A stretch of 43,871 nucleotides of DNA from an uncultured Selenomonas sp. (GTDB taxonomy: Bacteria > Bacillota > Negativicutes > Selenomonadales > Selenomonadaceae), in NCBI GenBank assembly GCA_902766095.1, contig CACXCN010000002.1, positions 1 through 43,871 of the forward strand, in the 5' to 3' direction. A program made the position numbers and the translations under genes. Under the pieces are notes generated by a model. It saw only the letters and a list, made by a program, of their open reading frames with translations, was not told the origin of the DNA and ran no database searches. Of the stretch, positions 176-33,177 are shown piece by piece (position 1 is the first letter of the stretch; every line of letters begins with the position of its first letter).

Positions 176-213
176 GATAGAAAGACTGCCGCAGGCACTA
201 ACGCTTGCGGCAG
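176..213 (-). terminator. Terminator of the HPr-LDH gene
   Basis: Inverted repeat with an 11-bp stem (186-196 with 203-213, one G-T pair) and a 6-base loop. On the minus strand it is followed by a T-rich stretch (TCTTTCTATC). It lies about 37 bases past the stop codon of the LDH fusion gene, as expected for an intrinsic terminator. Confidence 0.7.
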
Positions 214-249
214 CCTCTCTATGTTATAGAAGCAGTATCTCTGCTATTA

Positions 250-1548
250 TTACTTCACTTCGGCAGCACCGAGCGGGCAGCCCTCGTTGAAGTTGCGGGC
301 GTTCTCCATGGTGACGGCAGCGATGGCCTGCAGGGCCTCGCGCGTGAAGAAGGCCTGATGGCTCGTGAGGATGAGCTGCGGGAACATGAGCAGACGGCCC
401 GTGATGTCCTCGGTCGGTACATCGGCGCTGTGGTCGGTGTAGACGTTAGCGTCCTCGCCCTCATAGACATCGAGTGCGACGGCATGGAACTTGCCCTTCT
501 TCATAGCGGCGATGAGCGCCTCAGTATCGATGAGTCCGCCGCGGGCAGCGTTGACGAGCATCGCATCATCTTTCATGAGCGAGATGGCTTTCTCGTCAAT
601 GAGATGGTAGGTGCCGCCCTCGCCCATGATGAGCGGAGCATGAATGGAGATGAGGTCAGCCTTGCGCAGGACTTCTTCCTTCGAGGCATAGGTCAGCAGG
701 CCATCTTCCTCGAGCTTCTTGTTCGGGAAAGCATCCCAGCCGATGACCGTCATGCCGTAGCCTTTGCAGATGCGGGCCATGCACTGGCCGATGCGGCCGG
801 TGCCGAGGATGCCGGCAACCTTGTTGTGGAGGTCGACGCCGAGCAGGCCGGTGAGGTCGAAATTGTTGTCCTTGACCTTGTTGTAGGCCTTGTGGAGACG
901 GCGGTTGGCTGCCTGGATGGTCGCCATGGCATGCTCAGCCACCGCGTATGGGGAGTAGGCCGGTACGCGCAGCACGGTGATGCCGTACTCAGCAGCGGCT
1001 TTCTTATCGACATTGTTGAAGCCGGCGCAGCGCAGGAGGATCAGGCGGACGCCGCCGTCATGCAGCTGCTCGATGACATCGCGCGGAGCCTCGTCGTTGA
1101 CGAAGATGCAGACCGCATCGTAGCCATTGGCGAGATGTGCAGTCTCCGAGGTCAGACGGCTGCTGAAGTACTTGATATCGACATTATAGGTGCCCTCGCC
1201 CTTGTCTTTGGCGAGCTCGCTGAAGTAAAGACGGTCATAATCCTTCGTGCCGAAGAAAGCTACCTTCAGAACCGGAACCTTCTTGTCCTTCGGACCCATG
1301 GCATCGAAAACTTCCTGGATTTTTTCGATAGCGGTATCTTCATCAGGTCCATCTACAGTGATGGTCAGTTTCGTGCCCTTCGTCGCATGGAGAGCCAGGA
1401 TTTCCAGCACGTTGTTGCCCTGAGCGGTCTCATTAGCCGTCTCCAGGGTGACAGACGATTTCAGATTCGTGCAGGCCTGAGCGATAAGCGCAGCCGGGCG
1501 AGCATGGATTCCGAGCGAGCATTTTACTTCTACCTGAATTTGTTTCAT
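250..1548 (-). CDS. HPr domain-D-lactate dehydrogenase fusion protein
   Basis: 432 residues. Residues 1-88 are an HPr phosphocarrier domain: GIHARPAA puts His at position 15 and Arg at 17, exactly as in free HPr. Residues 95-432 are a fermentative D-2-hydroxyacid (D-lactate) dehydrogenase: NAD-binding GTGRIG at 249-254, catalytic Arg336 (NAARGG), Asp360/Glu365 (DVYEGE) and His397 (TSHQAF). The 37-residue Asp-His spacing matches the family. The LDH half should reduce pyruvate to D-lactate with NADH in the cytosol. The HPr half could be phosphorylated at His15 by PTS Enzyme I. The regulatory Ser46 of Gram-positive HPr is Asn46 here, so HPr kinase should not act on it. Start chosen at 1548 because AGGAGG lies 8 bases upstream; the frame runs open 14 codons further without a ribosome site. 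A strong promoter (TTGATT-17-TATAAT) and a terminator flank it, so it is monocistronic. The fusion is seen directly; the regulatory role is inferred. Confidence 0.93.
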   Translation of the reverse strand: MKQIQVEVKCSLGIHARPAALIAQACTNLKSSVTLETANETAQGNNVLEILALHATKGTKLTITVDGPDEDTAIEKIQEVFDAMGPKDKKVPVLKVAFFGTKDYDRLYFSELAKDKGEGTYNVDIKYFSSRLTSETAHLANGYDAVCIFVNDEAPRDVIEQLHDGGVRLILLRCAGFNNVDKKAAAEYGITVLRVPAYSPYAVAEHAMATIQAANRRLHKAYNKVKDNNFDLTGLLGVDLHNKVAGILGTGRIGQCMARICKGYGMTVIGWDAFPNKKLEEDGLLTYASKEEVLRKADLISIHAPLIMGEGGTYHLIDEKAISLMKDDAMLVNAARGGLIDTEALIAAMKKGKFHAVALDVYEGEDANVYTDHSADVPTEDITGRLLMFPQLILTSHQAFFTREALQAIAAVTMENARNFNEGCPLGAAEVK

Positions 1549-1605
1549 TTTGCTTAATCCTCCTAAATAGCAGCGATCTGCCCTTTTCAAAATATCCCTA
1601 AAAGA

Positions 1606-1634
1606 ATTATAAGCCGAGTGCTAGAGTAAATCAA
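1606..1634 (-). promoter_or_regulatory. Sigma-70-type promoter of the HPr-LDH gene
   Basis: Minus-strand TTGATT (1634-1629), 17-base spacer, perfect TATAAT (1611-1606). The 5' leader to the start codon is about 50 bases. Confidence 0.7.
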
Positions 1635-1799: not shown

Positions 1800-3302
1800 A
1801 TGAAAGGCAGATTTTTCTCGAGATGGGCTGGTCGTGCAGCCGGATTGGCATTAGCCCTTTCTATAGGTTTTATGCCGGCTGCCTGGGCGGCCGAGGTGAA
1901 TGATGTACGCGTGCATAGCGGCGAGACGCATGACCGCGTCGTGCTGGATCTCTCGGAGCTCAGTCCCTATCGCCTGACTACGGCGTCTGATGGCCGCGTC
2001 GTGACACTCGACCTGACGGATAGTGCGGCTGCCAAGAATTTTAAGAAACTATCTATACATTCGCAGCGCATTGTCAGCGTGAAATACAGCGAGAGCAAAG
2101 GCCATTTCCTCGTCACATTCCAGCTGGCGGACGGATTCCGGGCCAAAGCCGGGCGGGCCGCTAAGCCGGCGCGCGTATTCGTGGATATCGTGCCGGTGCA
2201 GTCGGCGTCGTCGAAGAAGACGGACAGACCAGCTGCGACGCAGCCAGCGGCTAAAGCAGAGGCTGGGGCCGAGGGCCTATCGCAGCAGGATTTCGATGGC
2301 CTGTATACCGAGATCGCGGCGCCGGGCATCGCGAAGAAGACGTATGTATATTGGAACAATGCCGGCAAGGTGACGGCCTATTTCGTCGAGGCTGATGCCA
2401 GCAAATATACGATCATGCCCGAACTGGCCCGGGGCCAGGTGCCCGGACGGCAGAGCGTCTCCGGCATCTCTGACCGCACGCAGGCCGTAGCAGCCATAAA
2501 TGCGAATTATTTTGCACCTGATGGCGATATCATCGGTCTATTGAAGATCAACGGTCTCGTGTGTGGGACAACATACTACGACCGCTCGGCCGTGGGCATC
2601 ATGCCGGATGGCAGCCTTGTCTGGGGGCGTGGGACATATACGGGCAGTGTGACGCTTGGCAAGGTGACGCAGCCGGTCGGCGGCGTCGACTGCGAGCGCG
2701 GTGCGGATGAACTCGTCATCTACAATAAATGGTACGGCAAGACGACTGGCACGAATGAGTATGGTCGTGAATATGTCGTGCGCAATGGCCGGGTGACGGA
2801 CATACGGACGAATGACTCGCCGATTCCGACGGGCGATGGTGACTGCGTGATTTCCGTTCATGGTAAGGTAGCGGAAGCTTTTGCCGGAGTACAGGTCGGT
2901 GACAAGGCCAGCATCACGCAGGAGCTGGGGCATCCCTGGGATGAGGCGCGTGATATCATAGGCGCCGGCCCGCGCCTCGTCGAGAATGACAAGGTCAATG
3001 TGACAGTCGCTGAGGAACAGTTCCCCGGCGATATCCGCTATGGCCGGGCACCGCGCAGCGCCTTCGCAGTGCTCGATAATGGCAACTATCTGTTCGGCGT
3101 CGTCGATGGCCGTCAGTCGCACAGCGTCGGTCTGACGCTCACCGAGTGGGCCGAACTGCTGCGCAAGTTCGGAGCGCGCGATGCCATCAATTTCGATGGC
3201 GGCGGCTCGAGCGAGCTCGTGCTCGGGGGCAAGGTGCTGAACTCGCCGTCGGACGGACACGAGCGGCCGGTCGGTTCTGCCCTGGTATTGCTGCAGCGCT
3301 GA
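1800..3302 (+). CDS. Exported AMIN-domain / phosphodiester glycosidase (NAGPA) family protein
   Basis: 500 residues. An N-terminal signal peptide ends near residue 30 (AAWA|AEV). Residues 32-130 look like an AMIN domain (RVVLDLSEL, VVTLDL), a module that targets envelope enzymes to peptidoglycan. After an Ala/Lys-rich linker, residues 195-500 match the NAGPA/DUF2233 phosphodiester glycosidase family, with the hallmark NFDGGGSSELV near 464-474 and NSPSDGHERPV close to the end. Such proteins act outside the cytoplasm on sugar phosphodiesters; the substrate here is unknown. The ATG at 1800 follows a TAAGGAAG ribosome site. It precedes another exported protein and murA on the same strand, an envelope-themed group. 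The family call is firm; the exact reaction is not. Confidence 0.88.
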   Translation: MKGRFFSRWAGRAAGLALALSIGFMPAAWAAEVNDVRVHSGETHDRVVLDLSELSPYRLTTASDGRVVTLDLTDSAAAKNFKKLSIHSQRIVSVKYSESKGHFLVTFQLADGFRAKAGRAAKPARVFVDIVPVQSASSKKTDRPAATQPAAKAEAGAEGLSQQDFDGLYTEIAAPGIAKKTYVYWNNAGKVTAYFVEADASKYTIMPELARGQVPGRQSVSGISDRTQAVAAINANYFAPDGDIIGLLKINGLVCGTTYYDRSAVGIMPDGSLVWGRGTYTGSVTLGKVTQPVGGVDCERGADELVIYNKWYGKTTGTNEYGREYVVRNGRVTDIRTNDSPIPTGDGDCVISVHGKVAEAFAGVQVGDKASITQELGHPWDEARDIIGAGPRLVENDKVNVTVAEEQFPGDIRYGRAPRSAFAVLDNGNYLFGVVDGRQSHSVGLTLTEWAELLRKFGARDAINFDGGGSSELVLGGKVLNSPSDGHERPVGSALVLLQR

Positions 3303-3375: not shown

Positions 3376-3437
3376 ACTAAACATGGAATATTTTGGTCAG
3401 CTTGTCAGGCATACAGCCTGATTATGAGGTGAATCCT

Positions 3438-5522
3438 TTGCGTAAATATTTGAAGAAAATCGTCGCTATAGGGATGGCGGTGTCTCTGCTCGGTTCGTAC
3501 GGGGGCACAGCAGCGGCGATGGAGCCGATCATGTCCTATAGCGAGGTCGAGCCGGGAGCTCAGGGGACTGCCCATACCGTGGTCGATGCCTCGGGTGAGA
3601 TCAAGCAGTTCGATGTCGAGATCATCGGCAATGTCGATAATGACAAGGGCTCAGACCGCATGATCATGGCCAAGGCCTCGGGGCCGGTCGTGCGTGCGGC
3701 TGGTGGCGTGCTGCAAGGCATGAGCGGCAGTCCGGTATACATCGATGGCAAGCTCATAGGAGCCCTGTCAGCCGGTATCAAGGATATGACGCCGTATACG
3801 TTCTTCATCACTCCGATCGAGGATATGCTGCCCCTGTGGCAGATGCCGGACCGCAAGAACAAGACGCGCATCCGCAGCTTTGACTATAAGAAATATCTGG
3901 CCGACCGCAAGAAAGCGGAGGAAGAGGCTAAGAAGAAAGCAGCGGCTGAGGCTCAGAAAACGGCCGATACGGCTGGTCAGGCGTCAGCCATCGATGCCGC
4001 TACGGCCAGCAAGATTGATGACGAGCTGGCTAAGATAAAGGCGAAATATAAGCAGGAAGATCAGAAAGACAAGGCAGAAAGCGCAGCGGAGTCAAAGGGG
4101 GATAAGGCCCAGTCCGACCAGACGTCTCCAGACAAGAAGACGGAAGCGAAGCCGGCTGAGAATGCTGGACCGGCAGAACCGGCGGCAGATGCGGCCAAGG
4201 CCAAGGCTGAGCCGAAGGCTAAGCTTTTCCTGTCGGGCTTCAACAGCGCGGGTCTCGCTTTCATGAAGAAGACGATGGATCCGAATGGCAAGTATGAGTT
4301 CCTGCCGATGGGCGGCGTCGCGAGCGGAGATGGCTCCGATACGGACTATGATGCCTCGCTGCTGCCGGGAGCTGCGGTCGGAGTAGCTGCCTGCTACGGG
4401 GATTTCTCAGTAGGAGCGACAGGGACGGTAACGGCCGTCGATGGCAAGCGCATCCTTGCGTTCGGTCATCCGTTCCTGCACCGCGGTAATGTGAACTATT
4501 TCATGACCGATGCGAAGATCATCGGCACAATCAGCGGCCAGAGTCTCGGTATGAAGGTCGCAACGATCGGCCATATCATCGGACGCATCTCGCAGGACCG
4601 TGAGACCGGCATCGCTGGCACGCTCGGTGATTTCCCGTCAGTCGTACCGATCAAAGTGCACATCAAGGATAATTCGCTCGGCCGGGATGAGAATTTCGGC
4701 GCGCGCATTGCCTATGACGAGGACTTCCTGTCCCAGCTGTCCGGCGGTATCGCCTATGCAGCGATGAGCCGCACGGCCGACGATCTCAGTGCCAGCACGG
4801 CGAACTTGCAGTTCACGATCCGCACGAATGCCGTAAAGGATGGCAAATTCGTGCGCAGCAATATGTTCTACAATACCGCTGATGTCGGTCAGATCGCTGT
4901 CAGCGAGCTGATGCAGGCCATGAATATCATATGCTCCAATACGGACAAGGAATCGGATATCATCGATGTGCAGGTGGATGTAACGCTCAATTCCGGACGT
5001 AAGACAGCTACGCTCCTGTCGGCCATACCAGATAAATCCAGCGTCAAACCGGGCGATACCGTCAATTTCAAGACGACGATCAAGCCGTATCGCGCCGATA
5101 AGCAGACGCTCATGATACCGTTCACAGTGCCGAAGAATCAGCCGGCCGGCAAACTGGCCCTCGATGTGCGTGGCGGCAGCCTCGTGCCGATCACGGCGAT
5201 GCAGCTGCTCCAGCAGACGGGAGTAGCCGTCGCAGCGGATGACACGAAGCAGCTGACGACGGAGGAGCAGCTCGACAAGCTCAAGAACTCCGGCCGCAGC
5301 AATGATATCGTCATAGCTCCGACGCCGGTCGTTCTGACCGAGCAGCAGCAGGCGAAACTGGCCCGCGAGGCTGCCAAGGCAGCGCGCAAGCAGGCGAAGC
5401 AGCCACGCAAGGTCAATCTCCTTGGCGTGAACAAAGAAAAGAAGTCGGGCGAGACGAAATTCGAGACGAAATACATCATAGATAATGTCATACACACGTC
5501 GCTGCAGATCGTAGAGAAATAA
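3438..5522 (+). CDS. SpoIVB-like peptidase S55 domain protein, exported
   Basis: 694 residues from a TTG start; GAGGTG lies 6 bases upstream, and the frame extends 15 codons further without a ribosome site. A signal peptide ends near residue 27 (GTAAA|ME). An S55-type serine motif GMSGSP with GKLIGA sits at 94-107, and a second block LAFGHPFLHRG carries His344. Between them (about 155-275) is a Lys/Ala/Glu/Pro-rich low-complexity insert, probably helical and flexible. In sporulation SpoIVB, as I recall, the catalytic His precedes the Ser motif; here the order is reversed, as in a broader bacterial S55 family. Another Lys/Ala-rich stretch lies near the C terminus (about 620-665). No other sporulation gene is in the window, so a sporulation role should not be assumed. 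It lies between an AMIN/NAGPA protein and murA, which suggests envelope work. Substrate unknown. Confidence 0.85.
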   Translation: MRKYLKKIVAIGMAVSLLGSYGGTAAAMEPIMSYSEVEPGAQGTAHTVVDASGEIKQFDVEIIGNVDNDKGSDRMIMAKASGPVVRAAGGVLQGMSGSPVYIDGKLIGALSAGIKDMTPYTFFITPIEDMLPLWQMPDRKNKTRIRSFDYKKYLADRKKAEEEAKKKAAAEAQKTADTAGQASAIDAATASKIDDELAKIKAKYKQEDQKDKAESAAESKGDKAQSDQTSPDKKTEAKPAENAGPAEPAADAAKAKAEPKAKLFLSGFNSAGLAFMKKTMDPNGKYEFLPMGGVASGDGSDTDYDASLLPGAAVGVAACYGDFSVGATGTVTAVDGKRILAFGHPFLHRGNVNYFMTDAKIIGTISGQSLGMKVATIGHIIGRISQDRETGIAGTLGDFPSVVPIKVHIKDNSLGRDENFGARIAYDEDFLSQLSGGIAYAAMSRTADDLSASTANLQFTIRTNAVKDGKFVRSNMFYNTADVGQIAVSELMQAMNIICSNTDKESDIIDVQVDVTLNSGRKTATLLSAIPDKSSVKPGDTVNFKTTIKPYRADKQTLMIPFTVPKNQPAGKLALDVRGGSLVPITAMQLLQQTGVAVAADDTKQLTTEEQLDKLKNSGRSNDIVIAPTPVVLTEQQQAKLAREAAKAARKQAKQPRKVNLLGVNKEKKSGETKFETKYIIDNVIHTSLQIVEK

Positions 5523-31224: not shown

Positions 31225-33177
31225 TTATTGCTGCCCGTCTGCACCCGGACCATCGATGGCGATAGCCACATGGGCGCTGGCAAATGTCTTCATATCGTTC
31301 AGTATGGCCAGGCTGGCATCTACGATCTGTATCGCCAGGCAGGCCAGAGTGCCTCCAGGCAGGTCGGATTCGAGATCGAGCAGCGCCGGTTGCGGATGAA
31401 GTACGTAGTGGCGCAGCGTTGGGCAGATGGCCTCCGTATAGCGGGCGATGATGTCCGTGGCGGCATCGCCGACGATGACCAGGCTGCTGTTGTGGGCGGC
31501 GGCGATGATGGCGCCCATGATGGCGGCGATGGCCCCCTGATATTCATCCGGCGCATATTTCAGGAATTCATCTGCCGGGTAGCGCAGGCTGCCGTCATCA
31601 TCGAGCAGGCTCTCGCGCAGGCGCTGGGCCGCAGTGCCGAGCGGCATATCCGGATCGAGCTCGGTCATGGCGATGCCGAGCAGCGGGTATACGAAAGCCG
31701 CCTGCTCGCCATGTTCACGGCCGAAGTTGAAGTAAGACGTTATGGGCAGCCCCTCGCGCAGGTGGGCGATGGTGACGTCCAGATCGGACAACTCTCCCTC
31801 ATCGGTCACGCTGCCGGCATGGGCAGCGAAGGCCTCGGTCATAGCCCCGAGCATCGGATTCGGCAGCATGCCGGAGAAACAGAGCAAAGAGCGCCCCGAG
31901 CCATTCGGCGGACATTCATCACCAGTGGCGGCGGCTAATTCCGTGGCCAGCGTCTCGAGATAGCCGAGGCTGTATATCGGCTTGGCGAGATGGTTCAGAC
32001 GATCCTGGCAGGCTGCGAGGGCCTCACCATCGAGTTCCTGCATCGTATTCAGATAGAAGTCGAAGGTCTTGTCGGTGGCAGGTACCGCCTGACGCGACAT
32101 GTAGACGTGTTCGAACGGCTGCTCGACCGGAGACTGGGGCAGGTGGTCGAGCACCTCCCAGGCGGCCAAGATCGATTGCAGTATGCACAGGAGTACCGAG
32201 GAGCCGCAGGCCTCGCCGAGTCGCAGGTCGAGGTGCAGGCAGGGCGTGAGGCCGAGATGGCGCAGGGCATGCTGATGGGCAGGCTCGCTGCCGAGATGCG
32301 AAGCCATGACGTAGTCGATGCTGTGCGGAGACAGCCCCTGAGCGATGAGGGCGGCAGCGGCGGAGTTCGCGCCATCGATGATGGTGCAGCAGCCATGAGC
32401 TGCCGCACCGAGGATGATGCCGGCGATAGCGCCGAGCTCGAAGCCGCCGACCTTGGCCAGCACATCGAGAGCATCATCGGCGTCAGGCTGGTTGAGCTCC
32501 AGAGCCCGTTTGACGATACCCTGCTTCTGACGCAGACGTTCATCGGATATGTTCGTGCCACGGCCGGTCGCTTCCTCAGCGGTAAGACCGCAGAATGTAG
32601 CAGTGATACAGGCCATAGCCGTCGTGTTGGCGATGCCCATCTCGCCGGGGAGCAGGCAGTCATAGCCTTGCTCGATGGCACGTTCGGCCAGCGTGATGCC
32701 GGCCTCTATCGATTGCCGGGCCTGCTCGCGAGTCATGGCCGGTCCCTGAGCCATATTCTGCGTGCCCTGAGCGATGCGGAAATCCAGCAGGCCAGGGATG
32801 GAGGCTGCTTCCTCCGCAGGGACAGCGATGCCGAGGTCGGCGACGATGAGCTCGGAGTCACAGTATTTCGCCAAGGCATTCGCAGCGGCTCCCTGCGCGA
32901 TGAGGTAGTTGCGCGTCATGTCGAGTGTCGTATCCTGCGGATAGGCCGATACGCCCTCTGCTGCTACGCCGTGGTCGGCACAGCAGATGATCGTACACGG
33001 CGTAGGCAGGTCAGGATGGAGCTCGCCGGTCAGCCGTATGTAGCGGTAAAGGATATCGCTGAGCCGACCGAGGGCTTTTTCATCACCTTCCATGACCGCA
33101 GCCAGACGCTGGTGCATGTCATCAGCCGGAGCCGCAGCAGGGACGATGCTGTTTAATGTATTCTGCAGAATAGGCAC
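31225..33177 (-). CDS. Tandem CobT-domain phosphoribosyltransferase (ArsA-ArsB-like fusion)
   Basis: 650 residues, twice the CobT length. Residues 1-355 are a CobT domain: CADHGV, LLPGEMGIANTT with Glu179, and LRLGEACGSS with Glu322. These match Glu174 and Glu317 of Salmonella CobT with the same 143-residue spacing. Residues 375-650 are a second, degenerate CobT domain: LAKPIYSLGYLETLA matches the family's KPPGSLGRLE start, but the catalytic Glu motif reads DLESDLPGG. CobT makes the alpha-ribotide of the lower ligand of cobamides. Sporomusa and Veillonella use paired CobT homologues, ArsA and ArsB, to activate phenolic ligands; this looks like such a pair fused. GTG 33177 follows GAGAGGAG. 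It starts 37 bases after the unknown gene, in an apparent LysR-orf-cobT operon. Confidence 0.85.
   Translation of the reverse strand: MPILQNTLNSIVPAAAPADDMHQRLAAVMEGDEKALGRLSDILYRYIRLTGELHPDLPTPCTIICCADHGVAAEGVSAYPQDTTLDMTRNYLIAQGAAANALAKYCDSELIVADLGIAVPAEEAASIPGLLDFRIAQGTQNMAQGPAMTREQARQSIEAGITLAERAIEQGYDCLLPGEMGIANTTAMACITATFCGLTAEEATGRGTNISDERLRQKQGIVKRALELNQPDADDALDVLAKVGGFELGAIAGIILGAAAHGCCTIIDGANSAAAALIAQGLSPHSIDYVMASHLGSEPAHQHALRHLGLTPCLHLDLRLGEACGSSVLLCILQSILAAWEVLDHLPQSPVEQPFEHVYMSRQAVPATDKTFDFYLNTMQELDGEALAACQDRLNHLAKPIYSLGYLETLATELAAATGDECPPNGSGRSLLCFSGMLPNPMLGAMTEAFAAHAGSVTDEGELSDLDVTIAHLREGLPITSYFNFGREHGEQAAFVYPLLGIAMTELDPDMPLGTAAQRLRESLLDDDGSLRYPADEFLKYAPDEYQGAIAAIMGAIIAAAHNSSLVIVGDAATDIIARYTEAICPTLRHYVLHPQPALLDLESDLPGGTLACLAIQIVDASLAILNDMKTFASAHVAIAIDGPGADGQQ

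Follow-up and report, generated by a model that had tools for sequence, protein, structure and literature searches.

The window analysed here, a 43,871-nucleotide stretch of contig CACXCN010000002.1 from an uncultured Selenomonas sp. (GenBank assembly GCA_902766095.1), encodes on its minus strand (a strand that the sequence-only reading did not give) a 432-residue protein in which an HPr domain of the phosphoenolpyruvate (PEP):sugar phosphotransferase system (PTS) is joined in one frame to an LdhA-type D-lactate dehydrogenase (LDH). This fusion is old, and far more than a hundred bacteria of gut and rumen share it. Based on sequence constraint and on the behaviour of HPr in other systems, we suggest that it is a PTS-coupled fermentative D-LDH regulated by its attached HPr, where phosphorylation of His15 or docking of Enzyme I would shift activity; we consider the chances of this proposal to be evenly balanced. 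The fusion would probably tie lactate output directly to the rate of sugar import. The stronger claim, that this is a covalent PTS-to-fermentation switch by which a lactate-forming enzyme reads sugar-transport flux with no need for transcription, CcpA or any free effector, is made more tentatively and falls somewhat short of an even chance; if true, it would be the first enzyme of fermentative metabolism carrying its own His-phosphorylated PTS receiver, and a compact enzyme switch responsive to PEP and pyruvate.

The reading frame, taken from the listing of open reading frames and its translation, starts with an ATG at 1548, its last codon ends at 253 and the stop occupies 250-252. The features of the gene are as follows.

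250..1548, minus strand: HPr-LdhA fusion gene, 432 amino acids plus stop, defined by its open reading frame, translation, Pfam domains and orthologues of the same architecture.
1303..1548, minus strand: HPr domain, residues 1-82, with PF00381 at residues 3-82 (1303-1542), an HPr-like predicted secondary structure and a predicted local confidence (pLDDT) of about 90.
1504-1506, minus strand: codon of His15, within the HPr domain, which also holds Arg17 and Asn46.
1270..1302, minus strand: variable interdomain linker, residues 83-93 (about ten residues), of low conservation and with lower pLDDT at residues 81-90.
253..1269, minus strand: predicted fermentative D-LDH of the LdhA type, residues 94-432, with PF00389/PF02826 and D-LDHs as nearest solved relatives.
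1606..1634, minus strand: sigma-70-like candidate promoter TTGATT-17-TATAAT, a consensus match only (10 of 12 positions).
1557..1564, minus strand: ribosome-binding site AGGAGG, read directly from the sequence.
184..215, minus strand: possible intrinsic hairpin 3' of the stop (ctgccgcaggc...gcttgcggcag), read directly and weak.

The hairpin is consistent with a single-gene transcript, but it is weak evidence, because a terminator scan did not detect it at 184..215.

Both halves of the protein are complete, as the sequence-only reading had proposed: translation confirms His15, Arg17 and Asn46 in the first half, and the Pfam domains and catalytic residues are all present. The PTS-HPr model matches residues 3-82 (E 5e-22, 78.2 bits against a cut-off of 23) and TIGR01003 the HPr half (75.5 bits, cut-off 47.9); 2-Hacid_dh matches residues 111-423 (E 1.3e-29) and 2-Hacid_dh_C residues 209-399 (E 2e-45). 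An AlphaFold2 model built with 56 orthologues as input (mean pLDDT 86.6; predicted template-modelling score, pTM, 0.80) has the secondary-structure order of HPr in residues 1-82.

In the LDH half, R336, E363 and H397, a GxGxxG motif at 249-254 and an NADH-type D272 are all found in the window protein, and R336, E363, H397 and D272 are invariant across the 56 relatives; we take these to be the known catalytic positions, from alignment to E. coli LdhA and textbook knowledge. The closest solved relatives are the D-LDHs of Fusobacterium nucleatum, Escherichia coli and Pseudomonas aeruginosa (aligned region 94-426), and the same tetrameric D-LDHs are the best Foldseek matches of the second half. 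The NCBIfam equivalog cut-offs for D-LDH (540-579 bits) are well above the best scores obtained (183-190 bits), which is no defining test of LdhA because these models cover other D-LDH subfamilies (VanH, PRK12480). By its sequence, the LDH half is a fermentative, NADH-dependent D-LDH of the LdhA type, with predicted activity. It aligns over its full length with the enzymes of E. coli (3wx0/5z1z), F. nucleatum (5z21) and P. aeruginosa (5z20) at about 41-44% identity, with the catalytic Arg, Glu and His kept; unlike the fusion, these lack an HPr domain and an MGE-type insertion of three residues, and they are regulated by pyruvate, oxamate, fructose 1,6-bisphosphate or metals and not by the PTS. 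The insertion (M308-E310, the MGE of MGEGG) follows the HAPLI motif and is of the MGE type in 93 of 105 fused LDHs and in 0 of 17 unfused ones, while Y201, D239 and W271 are fixed in the fused LDHs, where the unfused forms carry E, N and Y.

Constraint on the HPr half was analysed in 56 non-redundant fusions, taken from a redundant set of 106. Invariant among the 56 are G13, H15, A16, R17, P18, A42, L53, G58 and G67, and H15 and R17 are present in 106/106 of the redundant set. The mean frequency of the commonest residue per column is 0.65 for HPr, 0.85 for LDH and 0.44 for residues 83-94; His15-Ala-Arg17-Pro18 is unchanged although the HPr domain otherwise drifts, in a family that is deep and fast-evolving. 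His15 is encoded by CAT in 38 fusions and CAC in 18, and Asn46 by AAC in 25 and AAT in 25; since both synonymous codons are in use, these counts argue that the two residues are kept by selection on the protein and not by recency. Columns that contact Enzyme I according to the literature on its E. coli complex with HPr show higher conservation than the remaining HPr columns (0.78 vs 0.62, permutation p 0.007), an effect that is weak and suggestive only when residues 15-18 are left out (p 0.10). All 17 fusion genomes checked encode Enzyme I as well as a free HPr, and in the window's genome the Enzyme I gene adjoins the canonical HPr gene. Because of this adjacency and because the active centre is invariant, phosphorylation of the fused HPr by Enzyme I is plausible on sequence grounds, in line with the earlier suggestion.

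At position 46, Asn is found in 50 of the 56 fusions (with Asp in 3 and Glu, Arg and Ser in 1 each) and in 95/106 of the redundant set, compared with Ser46 in 20 of 27 other HPrs in fusion-bearing loci. The loss of Ser46 noted beforehand thus applies to the window protein and nearly all its relatives, but is not a full rule. The fusion does not carry the regulatory Ser46 of the Firmicute HPr/HprK/CcpA system, a residue that is non-essential for membership of the HPr family. HPr kinase was not found by PF07475, TIGR00679 or a protein query in the seven fusion genomes of the window's family, the window's own included, whereas it is present in 10/10 fusion genomes of Lachnospiraceae and Erysipelotrichales. 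This absence has good support but falls short of certainty, since B. subtilis, which is known to have HPr kinase, gave no PF07475 or TIGR00679 signal in the family-model controls; the protein query matched four of five genomes searched outside the family, missing G251 alone. With no HPr kinase found in the window's genome, Asn46 there would not be an adaptation to evade HPr kinase and CcpA, and would therefore have arrived with the horizontally acquired gene. Such an escape may matter in Lachnospiraceae and Erysipelotrichales, the donor lineages with HPr kinase. The expectation that LDH control would not feed back into CcpA is accordingly reasonable for those donor lineages and does not hold as an argument for the window's organism.

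Canonical HPr (PtsH) shares the PF00381 family and the His15/Arg17 active centre, but it is a free protein with Ser46, whereas the fused HPr has Asn46, forms part of a 432-residue enzyme and belongs to a separate lineage. Crh and Crh-like HPrs are, like the fused HPr, paralogues specialised by the loss of one phosphorylation site; the description of the fusion as the reverse of Crh is correct, since Crh has lost His15 and kept Ser46, and the fusion has His15 and Asn46. FruB, PtsP-type and HPr-sigma54 regulators also have an HPr module fused to another domain, but there the partner is a PTS component or a transcription factor, while in the fusion it is a metabolic enzyme.

Other unusual HPr genes were observed in the same set of genomes. 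The window's genome encodes a Crh-like 116-residue HPr (G000:C81:313-507; L003:289-639, minus strand) with Gly aligned at the His15 position and Ser46 kept, and so holds all three His15/Ser46 patterns (canonical HPr, fusion and Crh-like), though HPr kinase was not found there. Three related Lachnospiraceae carry, some 5 kb downstream of the fusion, a second HPr-like gene in which Ser takes the place of His15 while Ser46 is retained (L059:12180-12420, L069:12136-12376, L074:12158-12398). A protein combining HPr (His15 and Arg17 kept), PAS and a sigma-54 activator is encoded in the Mitsuokella-type genus g10 (genome G009, L177:1328-3010), where it has 560 residues and lies about 0.3 kb upstream of ptsH-ptsI, and also at L180 (G178); HPr matches lie in open frames of 563-583 residues in G089, G201 and G208. 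The HPr-PAS-sigma-54 protein, of which the genome of the window yielded no example, is possibly a transcription activator phosphorylated by the PTS.

In the mechanism that we propose for the fusion, PEP would charge Enzyme I, and Enzyme I~P would pass its phosphate to His15 of the attached HPr, from which PTS sugar uptake would drain it via EIIA proteins; high PEP with idle transport would leave His15 phosphorylated, and fast PTS uptake would leave HPr unphosphorylated. The phosphorylation state, or docking of Enzyme I, would then switch the allosteric LDH between states of higher and lower activity, with four HPr effectors as permanent parts of the LDH tetramer, and pyruvate reduction to D-lactate would keep step with sugar influx. 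Such control is credible because enzymes of the LdhA type form allosteric tetramers whose effectors differ between lineages (PMC4230899), and because free HPr regulates enzymes in E. coli: in its presence the K-half of PykF for PEP falls, and it affects PfkB, NagB and Adk in a phosphorylation-dependent manner (PMC10305011, PMC8167557). In E. coli, HPr thus acts as an allosteric effector of central metabolism in trans; in the fusion, the putative effector is covalently attached and its target would be the LDH. By analogy with HPr and PykF, the unphosphorylated HPr of active uptake would be the activating form, and activation of the LDH in this state is likeliest, matching lactate overflow at sugar excess. 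The phosphorylation itself, its effect on the LDH and the sign of that effect are what we infer here.

The main rival explanation, which we regard as unlikely, is that HPr serves to bring the LDH to Enzyme I. Enzyme I yields pyruvate from PEP, and thus releases the LDH's own substrate for each PEP used; the LDH would consume this pyruvate where it is formed, which would draw the PTS forward and recycle NADH, and His15 phosphorylation would be a by-product or would set the residence time. The above-average conservation of the Enzyme I-contact columns and the invariance of His15 and Arg17 fit this explanation too, and the flexible linker looks more like a tether than an allosteric element. If docking were the purpose, however, His15 should be free to change, as it has done in Crh-like proteins, whereas every fusion keeps it; conservation of the Enzyme I face beyond residues 15-18 is not significant, and since pyruvate diffuses, any kinetic gain is doubtful. 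We find it improbable that the domain is instead an extra phosphocarrier feeding sugar EIIAs, with fusion to the LDH merely co-regulating expression or stability. Its HPr domain is complete with an intact active centre, and the HPr domains of other multidomain PTS proteins do work as carriers; but a free HPr is available in every genome examined (beside Enzyme I in that of the window), the linked HPr forms a distinct lineage with characteristic residues 46-51, and it is invariably joined to the same LDH, which has clade-specific changes. A structural add-on for assembly, solubility or turnover, in which His15 is kept for the fold, is quite improbable, since His15 and Arg17 are surface catalytic residues and since His15 has been lost from Crh-type HPrs that these genomes also encode (C81 in G000; L059, L069, L074) but from none of the 56 non-redundant fusions. 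Lastly, an artefact of assembly or frame merging two genes, for which the separate but adjacent HPr and ldhA genes of two Lachnospiraceae genomes might be cited, has a negligible probability and is ruled out by the identical junction at more than 100 independent loci, from isolates and metagenome-assembled genomes, in a single clade, which likewise speaks against chance.

Several observations weigh against regulation of the LDH by its attached HPr. The AlphaFold model reveals no HPr-LDH contact, because it is a monomer without usable inter-domain confidence, and by its sequence the variable linker fits a loose tether equally well as a regulator. Some members carry Asp, Glu or Arg at position 46, which may bear on Enzyme I docking. 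Enzyme I accompanies 71 of 73 fusion matches in Sharpea's order, but it is found in 279 of 295 genomes of that order overall; since almost all genomes of these orders have Enzyme I, its co-occurrence with the fusion is weak evidence and statistically uninformative. No conserved operon was found among six diverse fusion loci examined, and upstream cre or Rex operators were found in only 1/56 and 3/56 fusions, no convincing excess over shuffled sequences.

The architecture recurs widely, contrary to the assembly error that the sequence-only reading had left open. A scan of contigs from 84,980 species gave 160 relatives; the best 80 of these, which were kept, are all full HPr-LDH fusions, from Mitsuokella, Selenomonas, Lachnospiraceae, Erysipelotrichaceae, Sharpea, Eggerthia, Faecalibacillus, Lactimicrobium and others. 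Restriction to Negativicutes can be rejected, as the family is mostly from Lachnospiraceae and Erysipelotrichales. In whole-genome searches, the fusion was found in 9/189 genomes of the window's family, in 13/397 Lachnospiraceae genomes (unfused LdhA being present in about 160 others of the sample) and in about 70/295 genomes of Sharpea's order (73 matches, three of them fragments). The relatives found on plasmids were all unfused LdhAs, and their matches covered less than 80% of the query.

Phylogenetic analysis indicates a single origin of the fusion followed by horizontal spread. In a tree of 75 LDH domains, one branch divides fused from unfused forms (100/100), and the LDH-linked HPrs form one lineage (99/92) distinct from the free HPrs that these genomes also carry, which by this grouping argues that the HPr half is likewise foreign to its host genomes. 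The window's protein pairs with a fusion from rumen Lachnospiraceae (82% identical). The fusion of a second genus in the window's family (G032) is placed elsewhere, beside the one found in G231 of the Lachnospiraceae sample; because the two fall apart in the tree, the window's family has acquired the fusion horizontally at least two times. The enzyme entered this family already fused, since no unfused LdhA was found at E <= 1e-50 in its other 180 genomes.

Two Lachnospiraceae genomes, G251 and G568, contain an unfused pair, with an 86-residue HPr (His15, Arg17, Gln46) upstream of LdhA on the same strand, separated by 102 bp in G251 and about 80 bp in G568. Their HPr groups with the fused HPrs in the tree, and their LdhA, 61-62% identical to the window's LDH half, has the fused-type KGEGTYN loop without the MGE-type insertion. 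Because the pairing thus exists with and without covalent fusion, it is good evidence for a functional link between HPr and LDH.

We found no description of an HPr-LDH protein in the open-access literature (subscription literature and database architecture listings being outside the search), in agreement with the sequence-only reading, which knew of none; in a review of the 2-hydroxyacid dehydrogenase family (PMC6303947), "HPr" denotes hydroxypyruvate reductases, and no mention of the PTS or of fused forms was found. The protein consists of two well-known parts with no new fold or chemistry, in a proposed regulatory coupling that appears undescribed and is widespread enough to count as real biology. 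When feed is rich in starch or sugar, overflow of D-lactate causes rumen acidosis and goes along with a low methane yield, and the bacteria implicated (Sharpea, Mitsuokella, Lachnospiraceae) carry the fusion. The D-LDH gene of Sharpea azabuensis, whose genome has the fusion (L107), was highly expressed and 12-fold up in low-methane sheep, although whether it is the fusion gene is not stated there (PMC5069950). An operational taxonomic unit of Mitsuokella jalaludinii, whose type genome also has the fusion (L043), showed the strongest negative correlation with methane yield among cows fed wheat, and correlated with D-lactate at 0.6 (PMC9119556). These links to methane and D-lactate are correlations only. 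If HPr controls the LDH, these gut bacteria would adjust how much lactate they make by reading sugar import post-translationally, and the old question of how PTS flux sets fermentation end-products would become testable on one purified protein and one residue, His15.

Elsewhere in the window, a 650-residue protein at 31225-33177 (minus strand) contains two DBI_PRT (CobT) stretches, apparently a head-to-tail duplicated CobT fusion. An open reading frame at 3393-5522 (plus strand) with a long Lys/Ala/Glu-rich stretch matches the SpoIVB-type peptidase S55, and is adjoined by a gene for a NAGPA phosphodiester glycosidase (1800-3302).
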